Assembly (NCBI GenBank): GCA_022822065.1 | Contig: JAJECI010000003.1 | Location: 1 to 64,000, forward strand | From: Candidatus Dadabacteria bacterium | GTDB taxonomy: Bacteria > Desulfobacterota_D > UBA1144 > Nemesobacterales > Nemesobacteraceae | Length of the DNA stretch: 64,000 bases | Reading direction: 5' to 3' | Shown here: positions 28,967-34,183 of the stretch, one piece after another | Layout of the letters: each line of letters opens with the position of its first letter | Position numbering within the stretch: position 1 is the first letter of the stretch | Position numbers and translations under genes: made by a program | The notes under the pieces: model-generated | The model's database searches: none | The model's input: the letters and a program-made list of their open reading frames with translations, nothing else | What the model was told of the DNA's origin: nothing

Positions 28967-29170
28967 ATGGCTGTAGCTAGAGTAACAGAGGTTATAGGGT
29001 CATCCGATAAGTCATGGGATGATGCTGTGCAGGAGGCTCTTGACAGAGCGAACAAGACGATAAGGGGTCTTACCGGAATCGAGGTAACGAAAATGAACGC
29101 CCGCATAGATGACGGGAAGATTACCGAGTACCGCTCCCACGTCAGGATCACCTTCATTCTGGAGGATTAG
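28967..29170 (+). CDS. Dodecin, flavin-binding storage protein
   Basis: The 67-residue protein matches the dodecin family across its full length: VTEVIGSSDKSWDDAVQEAL, the helix ALDRANKTIRG, and the closing strands ITEYRSHVRITFILED. Dodecins form twelve-subunit shells that sequester riboflavin or FMN and limit flavin photochemistry. Starts at ATG 28967 with a near-perfect AAGGAGG. It may share a transcript with the DapF homologue 42 bp downstream. Confidence 0.92.
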   Translation: MAVARVTEVIGSSDKSWDDAVQEALDRANKTIRGLTGIEVTKMNARIDDGKITEYRSHVRITFILED

Positions 29171-29212
29171 CATCTTCTTCCGGAATATTTTCCCAAAACT
29201 GAAAGCGACGTG

Positions 29213-30088
29213 ATGAACTGCTTTGTAAAATCACACGGGTTGGGAAATGACTATATCGTCTTAGACAGCGCCGAAATAGATTTTGATCTCGACAAATCAG
29301 CCATAGAACTCATATGCCACAGGAACTACGGCATAGGTTCTGACGGCATACTGCTTCTGGTCCCTCCCGCAAGGGGGGATTTCGGGCTCAGGATTCTCAA
29401 TCCTGACGGAAGCGAGGCGGAAAAAAGCGGAAACGGGCTCAGGATTTTCGCGAAGTACCTCTACGAGAGAAAAAACGCCTCGAGCAAGACTTTTTCCATA
29501 GATACTCCCGGCGGCCTTGTTACTGCCGAAGTCGAGGAAAAAGACGGGAAAGTCCACCACGTCACGGTGGAAATGGGCACGGCGACTTTCAGAGCGGATG
29601 AGGTGCCGGTAGATATAGAAGAGGAAGAAGCGGTGGCGCAGCGCCTGGCTCTTGGCGCGTCGGAATTTGATTTTACCGCCGTTTCGGTGGGGAACCCCCA
29701 CTGCGTTATTTTCTTCGAAGAGTTAAGAGAAGATCTCATAAGGAAACTCGGACCCGAGATAGAAAACCACCCCGTTTTCCCGAACAGAACTAATGTTCAG
29801 TTCGCCCAGGTGATCTCGCGCTCAAGCGTTCGCATCCTGATCTGGGAGAGGGGGGCCGGCTACACTCTTGCCTCGGGCAGCAGTTCCTGCGCGGTCGCCG
29901 CCGCGTGCGTGAAGTCCGGTCTTACGGATCGGAAGCTCAAGGTGCTGATGCCCGGCGGGGCTCTCGACATAAACGTCGGGGAGGACTGGGCGATCACTAT
30001 GCGCGGCGAGGTGGAGGAAGTCTTTTCGGGAATGTTAAGCGACGATCTTCTTTACAAACTCAGAAATCCTTCCGCTATAAACTTATAG
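29213..30088 (+). CDS. DapF-fold protein lacking both catalytic cysteines
   Basis: The 291-residue protein has the double-barrel DapF fold signatures: SHGLGNDYIVLD at the start, NPDGSEAEKSGNGLR near 68, VGNPHCVIF near 161, and WERGAGYTLASGSSSCA near 213. In DapF the two barrels each supply a catalytic Cys, in GNG.RC and in ACG.G. Here the positions read GNGLRI and ASGSSS, so both thiols are replaced. The conserved Glu of ERG is kept. It may be a non-epimerase paralogue or use another mechanism. An in-frame GTG at 29210 is an alternative start; ATG 29213 fits the family. The amidohydrolase gene begins 20 bp after it. Confidence 0.8.
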   Translation: MNCFVKSHGLGNDYIVLDSAEIDFDLDKSAIELICHRNYGIGSDGILLLVPPARGDFGLRILNPDGSEAEKSGNGLRIFAKYLYERKNASSKTFSIDTPGGLVTAEVEEKDGKVHHVTVEMGTATFRADEVPVDIEEEEAVAQRLALGASEFDFTAVSVGNPHCVIFFEELREDLIRKLGPEIENHPVFPNRTNVQFAQVISRSSVRILIWERGAGYTLASGSSSCAVAAACVKSGLTDRKLKVLMPGGALDINVGEDWAITMRGEVEEVFSGMLSDDLLYKLRNPSAINL

Positions 30089-30108: not shown

Positions 30109-31365
30109 ATGGAAAGACTGCTTTTAACGGCGGATGTGGTGATTCCGGTAAGTTCTGAACCGATTCGCAATGGAGCCGTCGTCGTGGACGGGGGACGTAT
30201 CGTTGACATCGGAACATCGGATAGAATCGAGACTGACTATCCCGGCTTACAGAAAATAGGAAGGCCGAACTCGATAATACTCCCCGGGTTCGTAAACGCC
30301 CACACTCACCTTGAGCTCAGTTGGACAAGGGGGAAGATCGGGGGTTTCGAGGATTTTACCGGATGGCTTGAGCGGCTGGTCACTCTTAAGGCCGGCGGGG
30401 TTGATCAAGATCTTGCGGAGGATTCAATGAGGATGGGGATTCGCGACGTCATCGAAAGCGGAGTCACTACAGTCGGGGAAATATCTTCCTTGGATTTCGG
30501 CGGGAGGGACATGCTTAGAAGCTCGGGGATGAGGATTATCGCGTTTCTCGAACTTTTTGACCGCATTTCACCGAGACTTTCCTCGCTTGAATTCCAAAAC
30601 GAGGATCTTTATGAGGAAAGACCTTTTCCGCACGCGCCTTATTCCTGCGGGCCGGAACTCCTGGAGGAGGTTTTCGCCTGTGCGCGGGAAAACTCGGTCG
30701 CGGCGGGAATCCATCTGGGCGAGAGCCCTGATGAAGTCGATTTCCTGCGAAACCTGCCCAATGAATTTGAACGGAAAATCTTCCCGCTCATAAAAAAGGA
30801 AACCTTCAAAAGGCCCGGGGCCGAAACCCCGACGCGCTACATAAACAGATTTCTTCGCGGAGGGGACGTAAAGCTCTCCGCCGTTCACATGGTCCAGGTG
30901 GTGGATGAAGATATGGAGATAATCCGAGGCGCCGATATCGGCATTGTTCTCTGCCCGAGAAGCAATGTTTTTCTCAGAGTGGGCAAACCGAACCTGCGCC
31001 AGATGCTTGATCATGAAAGAGTAGGGCTCGGGACCGACGGACTTTCAAGCAACTCGGATCTTGATTTCTTCCGGGAGATCAGATTCCTGCATGACATTAT
31101 GGTTGAGCAGGGAATACGGCAGAGTGCCCGTCTGGCGGTCTATTTCGCGACTTTAGGCGGAGCAAGGGCTCTTTTTCTCGAGGAGAAGACGGGGAGTCTT
31201 GAGGTCGGAAAAAGTGCCGACATCATATGTGTTGACTGCAAAGGGGGAATTGCCCCCGACCCCTATTCCTGCATAGTCTCTTCAGAACCGGAGGACCTCC
31301 AGTTCTCAATGGTAGGAGGGAACTTCATCTACAAAAAGGACCTTTGTCCTCCTTGTGAGCATTAG
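30109..31365 (+). CDS. Amidohydrolase-superfamily deaminase/hydrolase (TRZ/ATZ type)
   Basis: The 418-residue enzyme has the metal ligands of the class: GFVNAHTHLE near residue 62-71, the mid-sequence His in AAGIHLGES, SAVHMVQV with its His near 260, and LGTDGLSSNSDLD with the catalytic Asp near 305. These patterns match guanine/S-adenosylhomocysteine/aminofutalosine deaminases of COG0402. Because the window carries mqnA and mqnD, an aminodeoxyfutalosine deaminase is a reasonable hypothesis, but an MTA/SAH deaminase fits equally. ATG 30109 was preferred; the frame extends to 29905 inside the preceding gene. Confidence 0.8.
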   Translation: MERLLLTADVVIPVSSEPIRNGAVVVDGGRIVDIGTSDRIETDYPGLQKIGRPNSIILPGFVNAHTHLELSWTRGKIGGFEDFTGWLERLVTLKAGGVDQDLAEDSMRMGIRDVIESGVTTVGEISSLDFGGRDMLRSSGMRIIAFLELFDRISPRLSSLEFQNEDLYEERPFPHAPYSCGPELLEEVFACARENSVAAGIHLGESPDEVDFLRNLPNEFERKIFPLIKKETFKRPGAETPTRYINRFLRGGDVKLSAVHMVQVVDEDMEIIRGADIGIVLCPRSNVFLRVGKPNLRQMLDHERVGLGTDGLSSNSDLDFFREIRFLHDIMVEQGIRQSARLAVYFATLGGARALFLEEKTGSLEVGKSADIICVDCKGGIAPDPYSCIVSSEPEDLQFSMVGGNFIYKKDLCPPCEH

Positions 31366-31382
31366 TTTCCTCAGTATCTGTG

Positions 31383-32459
31383 ATGACCGAACCGAAGCCC
31401 GAAAAGCTTTTTGTCTATGGAACCCTGCGAAAAGGCGGGACAAGAGGCGGGCACCTTGAGCGATGCAGGTTGCTCAGGATGATAAAGGTTCCCGGGATTC
31501 TTTACCGCACACCCTTTGGTTATCCGGCGGCCGTGTTTGATGAGACCTCCCCGCTTGCCGTCCAGGGAGAGCTTTATGAGCTTCCCCCGGATTCCGAAGC
31601 CTTTATCGGAAGCGTGGACCGCCTCGAAGGCGCGGATGAAAAGCTCTTTTCAAGATCTTCCATCCGCTTGGGAAAAGAGTTCTTTTACGCCTATGAACCC
31701 GGCCCGGAACTCAGAAGTCGGATTGGCGATGCGGACATAATAAAAACCGGCAACTGGTTCTCGGACCCCGACCTCTGCGGCGAGGATCCCTTTTCCTTTG
31801 CCGTCAGTTTTGAGAACATCCAGAAGCAGTATTACAGGATGAGACCCGACGGTCGTTCGGAAGAGAACATTTTTCTTGAAGGCACGGTCCCGGTTCTGGT
31901 TACCTGTCCGCACTCAACCGCTCACACGAGAATGGGGAAACTGAAACGCCATGAATTCTACACCGCCGCTCTAGGAGCCGTGCTGCATCTGGTTCTCGGC
32001 TGCCACTGCCTTTACGCGAACAGGGAACAGGAAACAGACCCGAATTACTATGACGACTGCGGTTTTAAAGCTGCGCTCGGGAGAGTTCTGTCCGAGAGGA
32101 AAATAGATCTAGTTGTGGACATACACGGTACCGGAAACGAGAGGTCCGAGGACCTGTTTCCAGGCGTGGGGGTCGGGAGGGAATTTCTTCTTTCGGCACC
32201 TGATGTTCTTGACAAGTTTTATCTTGTCGCCGAGGAACATGGAATCACGGCCGGAAGCGCCGATATATTCCCCGCCGCAAGGCAGATGACCGTGGCCAAG
32301 TTCGCCGCGAAGCGGTTTTCGGTTCCCGCAATCCAGGTTGAGATAAGCGACAGGTTCAGGATGCCGTGGCGGCGGAAAGACGAGTTCCGCCGTCTCATAG
32401 GGTTTCTTCTCGGATTTGTCGAGAAAGTGATCCCGGAGAAACCGGGCCAGGGCGGATAA
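31383..32459 (+). CDS. Fusion of gamma-glutamylcyclotransferase (AIG2-like) and N-formylglutamate amidohydrolase domains
   Basis: The 358-residue protein has two unrelated domains. Residues about 8-115 are GGCT/AIG2-like: FVYGTLRKGG (the glycine-rich loop) and SVDRLEGADEKLFSR, with the presumed catalytic Glu. Residues about 165-350 match the N-formylglutamate amidohydrolase family: VTCPHSTAHTRMG, VVDIHGTGN and AIQVEISDRFR, which carry the metal-binding and substrate residues. GGCTs release 5-oxoproline from gamma-glutamyl compounds, while FGase releases glutamate from its N-acyl form. I know of no standard protein with this fusion. An in-frame GTG at 31380 is an alternative start. Confidence 0.8.
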   Translation: MTEPKPEKLFVYGTLRKGGTRGGHLERCRLLRMIKVPGILYRTPFGYPAAVFDETSPLAVQGELYELPPDSEAFIGSVDRLEGADEKLFSRSSIRLGKEFFYAYEPGPELRSRIGDADIIKTGNWFSDPDLCGEDPFSFAVSFENIQKQYYRMRPDGRSEENIFLEGTVPVLVTCPHSTAHTRMGKLKRHEFYTAALGAVLHLVLGCHCLYANREQETDPNYYDDCGFKAALGRVLSERKIDLVVDIHGTGNERSEDLFPGVGVGREFLLSAPDVLDKFYLVAEEHGITAGSADIFPAARQMTVAKFAAKRFSVPAIQVEISDRFRMPWRRKDEFRRLIGFLLGFVEKVIPEKPGQGG

Positions 32460-32489
32460 CGGGTGCCGTCTCCTCGGGTTGGAATAAAA

Positions 32490-33323
32490 TTACTCGCAGA
32501 GGATGTCAAGCATTGGGCTCTCGGCTATGATTCCCTTTGCTCGGGCTTTTTCAAAAAGATATTTAAGCGCCCAGGTTCCGCTCTCCCCGAGGTCCTTGGT
32601 CCACTCATTTACGTACATTAAAACGAACTTTTCTCCCGTATCCTCGCTCATCCCCCTTCCAAAGCGCATCGCGTAATCAAGAGCCTCTTTTTTGTTCGAA
32701 AGGGCGTACTCTATGCTTTCTCTGTGTACCCGAAGAACTTCGGCGTCAAGCCCCCGGGGCACGTCTCTTCGAAGCACGTTAAGTCCAAGAGGCATCGGAA
32801 GATCGGTCTCCTCGGCCCACATTTCCCCGAGATCGAACAGAAGCTCAAGCCCCGTCTCTTCGTAGGTAAGCTGCCCTTCATGTATAAGAAGACCCGCGTC
32901 CGCCTCTCCTTCGAGCACCTTGTCCATGATCTTGTCGAAGGGCACTTCGACCGGGATGAAATTATCAGCATAGAGGCTTAGAAGAAGATATGCGGTAGTA
33001 AGCTTTCCGGGCACCGCGACGGTTTTTCCCCCGAGGTCAGAAATTTTCTCCCTGGCGACCACTATGGGGCCGTACCCTTTTCCCATACTGGCCCCGCAGG
33101 AAAGAATCCGATAGCGGTCCTGCACGCTAAGGTATCCGTGGGCGGAGATTGCAGTGACTTCGAGTTCCGCCGCCATGGCTCTTTTGTTAAGGGACTGTAT
33201 GTCTTCAATCACGTGCTCGAAGTCGATTGCTTCTGAAACCACCTTTCCGTTCGCTATGGCGTAGAACATGAACGCATCGTCTGCATCGGGGCTGTGCCCC
33301 AGCCTCATCATCCGTTTTTCCAT
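32490..33323 (-). CDS. mqnD: 1,4-dihydroxy-6-naphthoate synthase (futalosine pathway)
   Basis: MqnD splits cyclic dehypoxanthinyl futalosine to 1,4-dihydroxy-6-naphthoate, late in the alternative menaquinone pathway. The 277-residue protein opens with GHSPDADDAFMFYAI, typical of MqnD, and contains GKTVAVPGKLTTAYLLL near 98, DAGLLIHEGQLTY near 137 and LPMPLGLNVLRRDV near 170. AGGAG lies 9 bases before ATG 33323. It follows mqnA by 23 bp in the same operon. MqnB, MqnC and MqnE are not in the window. Confidence 0.92.
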   Translation of the reverse strand: MEKRMMRLGHSPDADDAFMFYAIANGKVVSEAIDFEHVIEDIQSLNKRAMAAELEVTAISAHGYLSVQDRYRILSCGASMGKGYGPIVVAREKISDLGGKTVAVPGKLTTAYLLLSLYADNFIPVEVPFDKIMDKVLEGEADAGLLIHEGQLTYEETGLELLFDLGEMWAEETDLPMPLGLNVLRRDVPRGLDAEVLRVHRESIEYALSNKKEALDYAMRFGRGMSEDTGEKFVLMYVNEWTKDLGESGTWALKYLFEKARAKGIIAESPMLDILCE

Positions 33324-33346
33324 TCTCGTCTCCTTTTGGATTTCGT

Positions 33347-34183
33347 CTATGACGGGTCTGTATAGAAGTTGATTTCGTTTTTCTTTTCTATTTCGTTTAG
33401 TTCAAAAAGAAGGTCGCGGTATTTGATGAGTCCGTCAATTTTTTGGCCGTCAAGGTCGTACTTAATCCTTTTTTGAAGGTAAGTCAGACACTGTTCCCTG
33501 TTGAGTCCAAGTTTTCGGGATTCGATATCTACTATCTCCGAGATGAGTTCCACCCCCTGTTCTCTTGTCGGAACGAGACACCTGCAGCCCTCGGCGGTAG
33601 CGTCGTCTCCTTTTTTGATCGCCATTACCGCGTATACGAAGGGAAGGGCCGTCTCCCTGGTCCAGAGTTCGCCCAAGTCATAGGTGAAAGCGGATTTCTC
33701 CGCGAAGAGGTAACGGGCCTGAAGACCCGAGTTGCCGATGAGCATCCCGGCGTCAACTCCTTCAAGGAAACCGTTTCCGGGCTCTCTTTTTACGTATTCG
33801 GGCTTAAGCCCCAAAAAGAGTTCGAGAACGATTCTGAGCAGGGCCGTTGAGCTCCTGGACCTGCTGTCGACCGACACGCTTTGTATTTCCGTTATTTTCT
33901 TTCGCGCCTTTAGTATAACGCTGTCGACTTTTCCGAAAGAGGATATGGAAATGTCGGGCAGAATGCAGTAGCCGTCGGTTCTTAGAAATTCAACCGAGGG
34001 AATGGGCGCGACATCCACCACTCCTTTCGACAGATTCTCGGAAAGGAGGAAAGGGTCAAAATACATTATGTTGAAGCTGTGCTCGACGATCCCTTTTTCC
34101 AGAGGATAGATGAGCGGTCGCATATTAAGAAAAGGCGCTGCTCCGAGATTTATCAATGACCGGCCCCCCTTTTTTTCGCTCAT
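33347..34183 (-). CDS. mqnA: Chorismate dehydratase (futalosine pathway)
   Basis: MqnA removes water from chorismate, giving 3-enolpyruvylbenzoate, the first step of the futalosine route to menaquinone. The 278-residue protein contains the family block VDSRSRSSTALLRI near 105, DAGMLIGNSGLQA near 145 and YDLGELWTRETALPFVYA near 170. It shares the periplasmic-binding-protein-like fold with its neighbour MqnD. The ATG overlaps the stop of dgt by 4 bases, so mqnA is translated with it. Confidence 0.92.
   Translation of the reverse strand: MSEKKGGRSLINLGAAPFLNMRPLIYPLEKGIVEHSFNIMYFDPFLLSENLSKGVVDVAPIPSVEFLRTDGYCILPDISISSFGKVDSVILKARKKITEIQSVSVDSRSRSSTALLRIVLELFLGLKPEYVKREPGNGFLEGVDAGMLIGNSGLQARYLFAEKSAFTYDLGELWTRETALPFVYAVMAIKKGDDATAEGCRCLVPTREQGVELISEIVDIESRKLGLNREQCLTYLQKRIKYDLDGQKIDGLIKYRDLLFELNEIEKKNEINFYTDPS

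Follow-up and report, generated by a model that had tools for sequence, protein, structure and literature searches.

We infer that the gene at positions 29213-30088 of the window (the whole 64,000-nucleotide stretch of Candidatus Dadabacteria DNA that was analysed) is, with good probability, the organism's working diaminopimelate (DAP) epimerase, converting LL-DAP to meso-DAP, and that it belongs to a distinct clade of DapF proteins in which both acid/base cysteines are serines. The conserved substitutions, the sole copy, the presence of the pathway enzymes on either side of this step, the linkage in Bacteroidota and the intact DAP contacts make an epimerase the most likely assignment, and the genomic evidence favours a DAP epimerase of altered chemistry over an enzyme with a new substrate.

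Meso-diaminopimelate is a precursor of both cell wall and lysine, and in the textbook account cofactor-free racemases rely on two cysteine thiols to take off an alpha proton of very low acidity. A natural protein of the Ser/Ser type, standing as the one candidate DAP epimerase in the majority of a phylum's sampled genomes, would show the thiols to be dispensable, and would let two-way residue swaps test why cysteine usually wins. The covalent inhibitors of DapF, which is an antibacterial target, act on the catalytic cysteines, and a thiol-free class therefore bears on inhibitor work. Annotation models place the clade well above the DapF cut-off, leaving the missing residues unflagged.

A DapF homologue whose catalytic positions both carry serine

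The open reading frame is intact, with an in-frame GTG at 29210 as a possible alternative start, and the reading frame, coordinates and motifs given in a preliminary description of this DNA all proved correct on re-checking. Against TIGR00652, the DapF equivalog of NCBIfam, the product reaches 245.6 bits (cut-off 114.65); it also has two matches to the Pfam family PF01678 (193.7 bits, cut-off 34.7), and thus belongs to DapF by the curated profile cut-offs. It has the DapF fold in an AlphaFold model with a pLDDT of 94.6, whose top PDB matches are DapF crystals (Foldseek against 9mro: E 1.1e-34, TM 0.89). The proline racemase superfamily model PF05544 falls short of a full-length match, covering residues 90-156 only at 33 bits.

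Solved structures of DapF place one catalytic Cys immediately upstream of GNG (the first; Cys75 of the Anabaena enzyme, 'EMCGNG') and the second in 'ACGTGACA' (Cys224). Ser72 and Ser221 of the window protein align with these two residues free of gaps around both sites (Table 1). The preliminary description was thus right that both catalytic cysteines are replaced, but the replacements are Ser and Ser and not Ile and Ser, the first of them having been read at the Cys of GNG.RC, which is the wrong residue. That cysteine follows GNG, stands outside the catalytic pair and is kept in all 25 Cys-type rows aligned; it is also gone here (Ile78). The residue equivalent to Lys71 is never Lys in the Cys-containing rows of the alignment, where Met, Gln, Ser or Ala is found instead. 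Cys226, in the motif SSSCA, is unlikely to serve as a substitute base, being present in Cys/Cys enzymes too and replaced by Ser in the Bacteroidota protein L025.

With Ser72 and Ser221 and their counterparts in 47 of 47 clade sequences, the thiol/thiolate pair is absent and the window protein lies outside the classical two-cysteine type of DapF. It agrees with DapF in the other criteria examined.

Table 1. Positions in the window of the DapF homologue, its key residues and the neighbouring genes
Feature	Position	Strand	Remarks
Dodecin, upstream neighbour	28967..29170	+	PF07311
Ser/Ser DapF homologue, 291 aa	29213..30088	+	ATG 29213; TIGR00652 over cut-off, PF01678 twice
Lys71, directly before first catalytic position	29423..29425	+	47/47 in Ser/Ser clade
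Ser72, replacing first catalytic Cys (Cys75 of Anabaena DapF)	29426..29428	+	codon AGC; motif EAEK-S-GNG
Ile78, in place of the conserved non-catalytic Cys of GNG.RC in Cys-type DapFs	29444..29446	+	alignment
Glu212-Arg213, DAP-contacting pair, invariant	29846..29851	+	alignment and Anabaena contact list
Ser221, replacing second catalytic Cys (Cys224 of Anabaena DapF)	29873..29875	+	codon TCG; motif TLA-S-GSSS
Amidohydrolase related to aminofutalosine deaminases	30109..31365	+	best model NF006269, 179.9 bits, below cut-off 320
MqnA/MqnD-family menaquinone biosynthesis gene	32490..33323	-	PF02621
Second MqnA/MqnD-family gene	33347..34183	-	PF02621

Conservation of the substitutions

All 47 distinct Ser/Ser proteins keep the two serines as well as the Lys71 that precedes the first of them, the closest relatives being named Candidatus Dadabacteria and the best of them having 93-96% protein identity. 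The first serine is encoded by AGY in 46 of these sequences and by TCC in one (L023, from Rokubacteria), and the second by TCN in every one (n=47). Within the genus dN is about a tenth of dS, ranging from 0.024/0.228 to 0.09/0.89. Since both serines are kept throughout and dN is far below dS, the substitutions reflect neither chance nor error; sequencing error, a pseudogene and recoding are rejected, given ordinary Ser codons at both sites in 47 distinct proteins.

The same data bear on the proposal that this DapF has lost its catalytic activity and is retained for some non-enzymatic role. Absence of both catalytic cysteines is what such a protein might display, but the low dN relative to dS, the invariance of all ligand residues (see below) and the survival of the gene as a single copy in streamlined genomes in which LysA is also present make this very unlikely.

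In a tree from which both trait residues were masked, 30 Ser/Ser rows fall on one side of a branch with support 100/99, and the distinct clade with conserved changes predicted in the preliminary description does exist. Convergence within the Ser/Ser group was considered and is disfavoured by this uniting of all 30 rows in a tree with nine Cys/Cys rows only. Because the tree held only these nine, a single origin of the group appears likely but not secure.

DapF is the only candidate for the epimerase step

In the window genome, which is 96.5% complete, there is a single DapF gene, the sole PF01678 gene there. The phylum sample comprised 58 genomes: exactly one DapF gene is present in 55, and none was detected in the other three; a second, Cys-containing dapF was found neither in the window genome nor in these 58. 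Ser is present at the first site in all 55 single-DapF genomes, 54 of which match a degenerate EKSGNGLRI pattern while the remaining one reads QKSGNGIR; this full survey scored the first site alone, by pattern, and the reading of both sites covers the 47 sequences described above. The gene is retained even in genomes of the phylum of ~1 Mb. One genome of the same order (G033, 92% complete) has LysA and gave no DapF match, reflecting either an assembly gap or a real loss.

The window genome encodes both a maker of LL-DAP and users of meso-DAP. The LL-DAP aminotransferase DapL scores 598 against TIGR03540 (equivalog cut-off 593.25), the DAP decarboxylase LysA scores 517.8 against TIGR01048 (cut-off 297.9), and MurE is over the cut-off of the 2,6-diaminopimelate-ligase equivalog and has the SDNPR (DNPR) motif. 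LysA is over its cut-off in 56 of the 58 phylum genomes. DAP dehydrogenase (Ddh) was not found in the window genome or in any of the 58 (0/58), and a Ddh bypass to meso-DAP is rejected on these grounds. Without Ddh, LL-DAP would be made and meso-DAP would be needed with no other known route between them.

The statement that the protein cannot work as a DAP epimerase is therefore contradicted, since it is the sole DapF in a genome with DapL, LysA and a DAP-type MurE, and without Ddh. The preliminary description had itself named an only dapF in a genome that makes meso-DAP as the finding that would tell against its reading; the gene content of the window genome fits this situation, and the gene is likewise alone in 55/58 of the phylum.

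Outside the phylum, no other DapF accompanies the Ser/Ser gene in the sampled Rokubacteria, HRbin32, Armatimonadota and Chloroflexi genomes or in one of Bacteroidota. The Ser/Ser gene is additional to a Cys/Cys copy in Rahnella victoriana and in two Sedimentisphaerales MAGs, and members of the clade are thus not always the sole epimerase, a point against the assignment. The extra copy of R. victoriana (L030:4995-5831) has neighbours that by eye resemble transporter and aromatic-degradation genes, and the two Sedimentisphaerales (Planctomycetota) MAGs, L028 and L029, each carry a Cys/Cys as well as a Ser/Ser DapF. Named plasmids gave matches only below 60% identity.

The DAP-binding site is intact

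In Anabaena DapF crystals, DAP analogues are held by Asn13, Asn66, Gly76, Asn77, Asn164, Asn197, Glu215, Arg216, Gly225 and Thr226 (PMC12039745). By alignment, nine of these ten contacts are identical in the window protein and the tenth, Thr226, corresponds to Ser223, so that residues binding both ends of DAP are in place; all ten equivalents are invariant in the 47 Ser/Ser proteins. Predicted helices at residues 73-85 and 222-234 start directly after Ser72 and Ser221. Ala mutants have been made in Corynebacterium glutamicum DapF at several equivalent positions and at both cysteines, with the Cys mutants nearly inactive (PMC5296763).

A dehydratase or eliminase also has to be weighed. Within the proline racemase superfamily an epimerase can become a dehydratase when a Cys is exchanged for Thr or Ser, as in the human trans-3-hydroxyproline enzyme, where Cys-to-Thr gives a dehydratase (PMC8142540), and in the Ser/Thr protein B9K4G4, also a dehydratase (PMC4113996). 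DAP, however, has no beta leaving group, the residues that bind it are intact, and the protein is the sole epimerase candidate in genomes carrying DapL and LysA, and we regard this alternative as highly improbable.

Gene neighbourhoods

The dodecin upstream and amidohydrolase downstream of dapF are as the preliminary description had them (Table 1). The pair of dapF followed by the amidohydrolase is kept in most sampled Dadabacteria loci, near MqnA/MqnD-family genes, and in the window the amidohydrolase and two MqnA/MqnD-family genes (30109-34183) lie near dapF and hisF. In the product of 31380-32459, residues 9-125 at the N-terminal end match a gamma-glutamylcyclotransferase-like domain (PF06094) and the C-terminal part matches nothing in Pfam; proteins resembling it are encoded close to the dapF-amidohydrolase pair at other loci of Dadabacteria. 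An ORF at 727-1383 resembles, by eye, a fragment of an IS110-type transposase.

The linkage of the Dadabacteria gene to an amidohydrolase, near menaquinone genes and not lysine genes, counts against the epimerase assignment. It also raises the idea of a role in menaquinone (futalosine) metabolism together with the adjacent amidohydrolase and MqnA/MqnD-family genes, for which the adjacency in the window and in most sampled Dadabacteria speaks. This linkage is absent from the Bacteroidota, Rokubacteria, HRbin32 and Armatimonadota loci, and no futalosine step is known to require an alpha-carbon epimerase; there is thus little chance of such a role.

The earlier remark that the gene is not in a lysine operon holds for the window and for Dadabacteria, but not for the Bacteroidota members of the clade. 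Ser/Ser DapF is rare in that phylum (2/396 genomes). In L025 a DapL on the opposite strand and divergent (TIGR03542, 618.5 against 364.7), the Ser/Ser DapF and LysA (293.9 bits, slightly below the 297.9 cut-off) are adjacent in that order, and the Ser/Ser protein is the only DapF of the genome. In the second genome (L148) the LL-DAP aminotransferase DapL (671, equivalog cut-off 585) comes after the Ser/Ser DapF and shares its strand.

These loci also bear on whether the protein might racemise or epimerise some other amino acid or a related compound, with an unrelated enzyme making meso-DAP. We consider this unlikely. It would be in keeping with the loss of both cysteines, the non-lysine neighbours in Dadabacteria and the extra Ser/Ser copies in genomes with a Cys/Cys DapF; against it are the retention of all residues gripping the distal amino acid of DAP, the DapL and LysA linkage in Bacteroidota, and 58 genomes with neither Ddh nor a second DapF. 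The new activity that had been envisaged is disfavoured by the DAP contacts, by this linkage, and by the presence of a sole DapF in 55/58 genomes.

A possible thiol-free mechanism

For a DAP epimerase with serine at both sites, Ser72 and Ser221 would be the acid/base residues converting LL-DAP to meso-DAP. The two catalytic sulfurs of Anabaena DapF have no basic residue within 4 A (PMC12039745). An invariant Lys beside Ser72 has been gained in the Ser/Ser clade, and Lys71 probably activates Ser72 or shares the role of base, this being the least certain step. Serine-based proton transfer would become feasible through the helix ends, through the carboxylate clamp, which is intact, and probably through Lys71. 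We advance only tentatively, as a possibility short of probable, a natural thiol-free epimerase that uses two-base proton transfer on DAP by Ser72 and Ser221, with Lys71 as a base or, in a Lys-Ser pair, as activator of Ser72. Such Lys-Ser chemistry was not found described for any cofactor-independent amino-acid racemase. Given that the sole epimerase candidate has Ser at both Cys positions, a change common to the whole phylum, the enzyme probably uses chemistry so far undescribed for DapF.

Several published observations count against serine in these roles. Engineered Cys-to-Ser changes hinder catalysis (PMC11602996, PMC12039745), Cys-to-Ala nearly abolishes the activity of C. glutamicum DapF (PMC5296763), and serine is a much weaker acid than cysteine (reviewed in PMC8142540).

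If the thiol-free mechanism is correct, resistance to oxidation and to cysteine-directed DapF inhibitors would be expected. In C. glutamicum DapF a disulfide joining the catalytic cysteines shuts the enzyme off (PMC5296763), and for this reason oxidation resistance is a possible, if speculative, benefit of the Ser/Ser arrangement.

Comparison with known systems

The open literature searched, which leaves out most subscription journals, contained no published Ser/Ser DapF, no kinetics of a Cys-to-Ser DapF, and no reports on lysine in Dadabacteria or on the essentiality of Rhodobacter dapF. A natural parallel within the family is in the Rhodobacteraceae (loci L032-L045, L047 and L048), whose DapF resembles the window protein in having Ser at the second site (ASGSSS) and in being the only DapF of its genome (12/12 genomes). 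It differs in having Cys at the first site, with Ala before it, and in the masked tree it forms a separate branch near the gammaproteobacterial Cys/Cys enzymes. The second catalytic cysteine has apparently been lost independently in this family, which includes cultured members. Its standing as sole DapF suggests that natural enzymes can do without at least the second cysteine.

The proline racemase superfamily has a related fold and natural members with Ser at the first catalytic position whose activity has been demonstrated, although they act on other substrates and belong to another family. The 4HypE B9JQV3 is Ser/Cys and still a two-base epimerase, and the t3HypD B9K4G4 is Ser/Thr (PMC4113996); no Ser/Ser pair is described for this superfamily in the literature examined. 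The histidine racemases HisR/CntK have the DapF fold in common with the window protein, but use two catalytic cysteines and histidine as substrate (PMC11602996); the retained DAP contacts and the DapL/LysA context would argue against such an identity here. O-ureidoserine racemase also has the DapF fold, with a different substrate.

A further comparison is with Cys/Cys DapF itself (TIGR00652; 9mro, 3ejx, 1gqz, 5m47), with which the window protein shares the fold, the DAP contacts and DapL and LysA as partners, and in which the catalytic positions start two helices, as in the predicted model. The window protein differs from it in having Ser at both catalytic Cys positions, Lys in place of the Met, Gln or Ser before the first site, Ile in place of the third conserved Cys (GNG.RC), and a Pro following the ligand residue Asn63.
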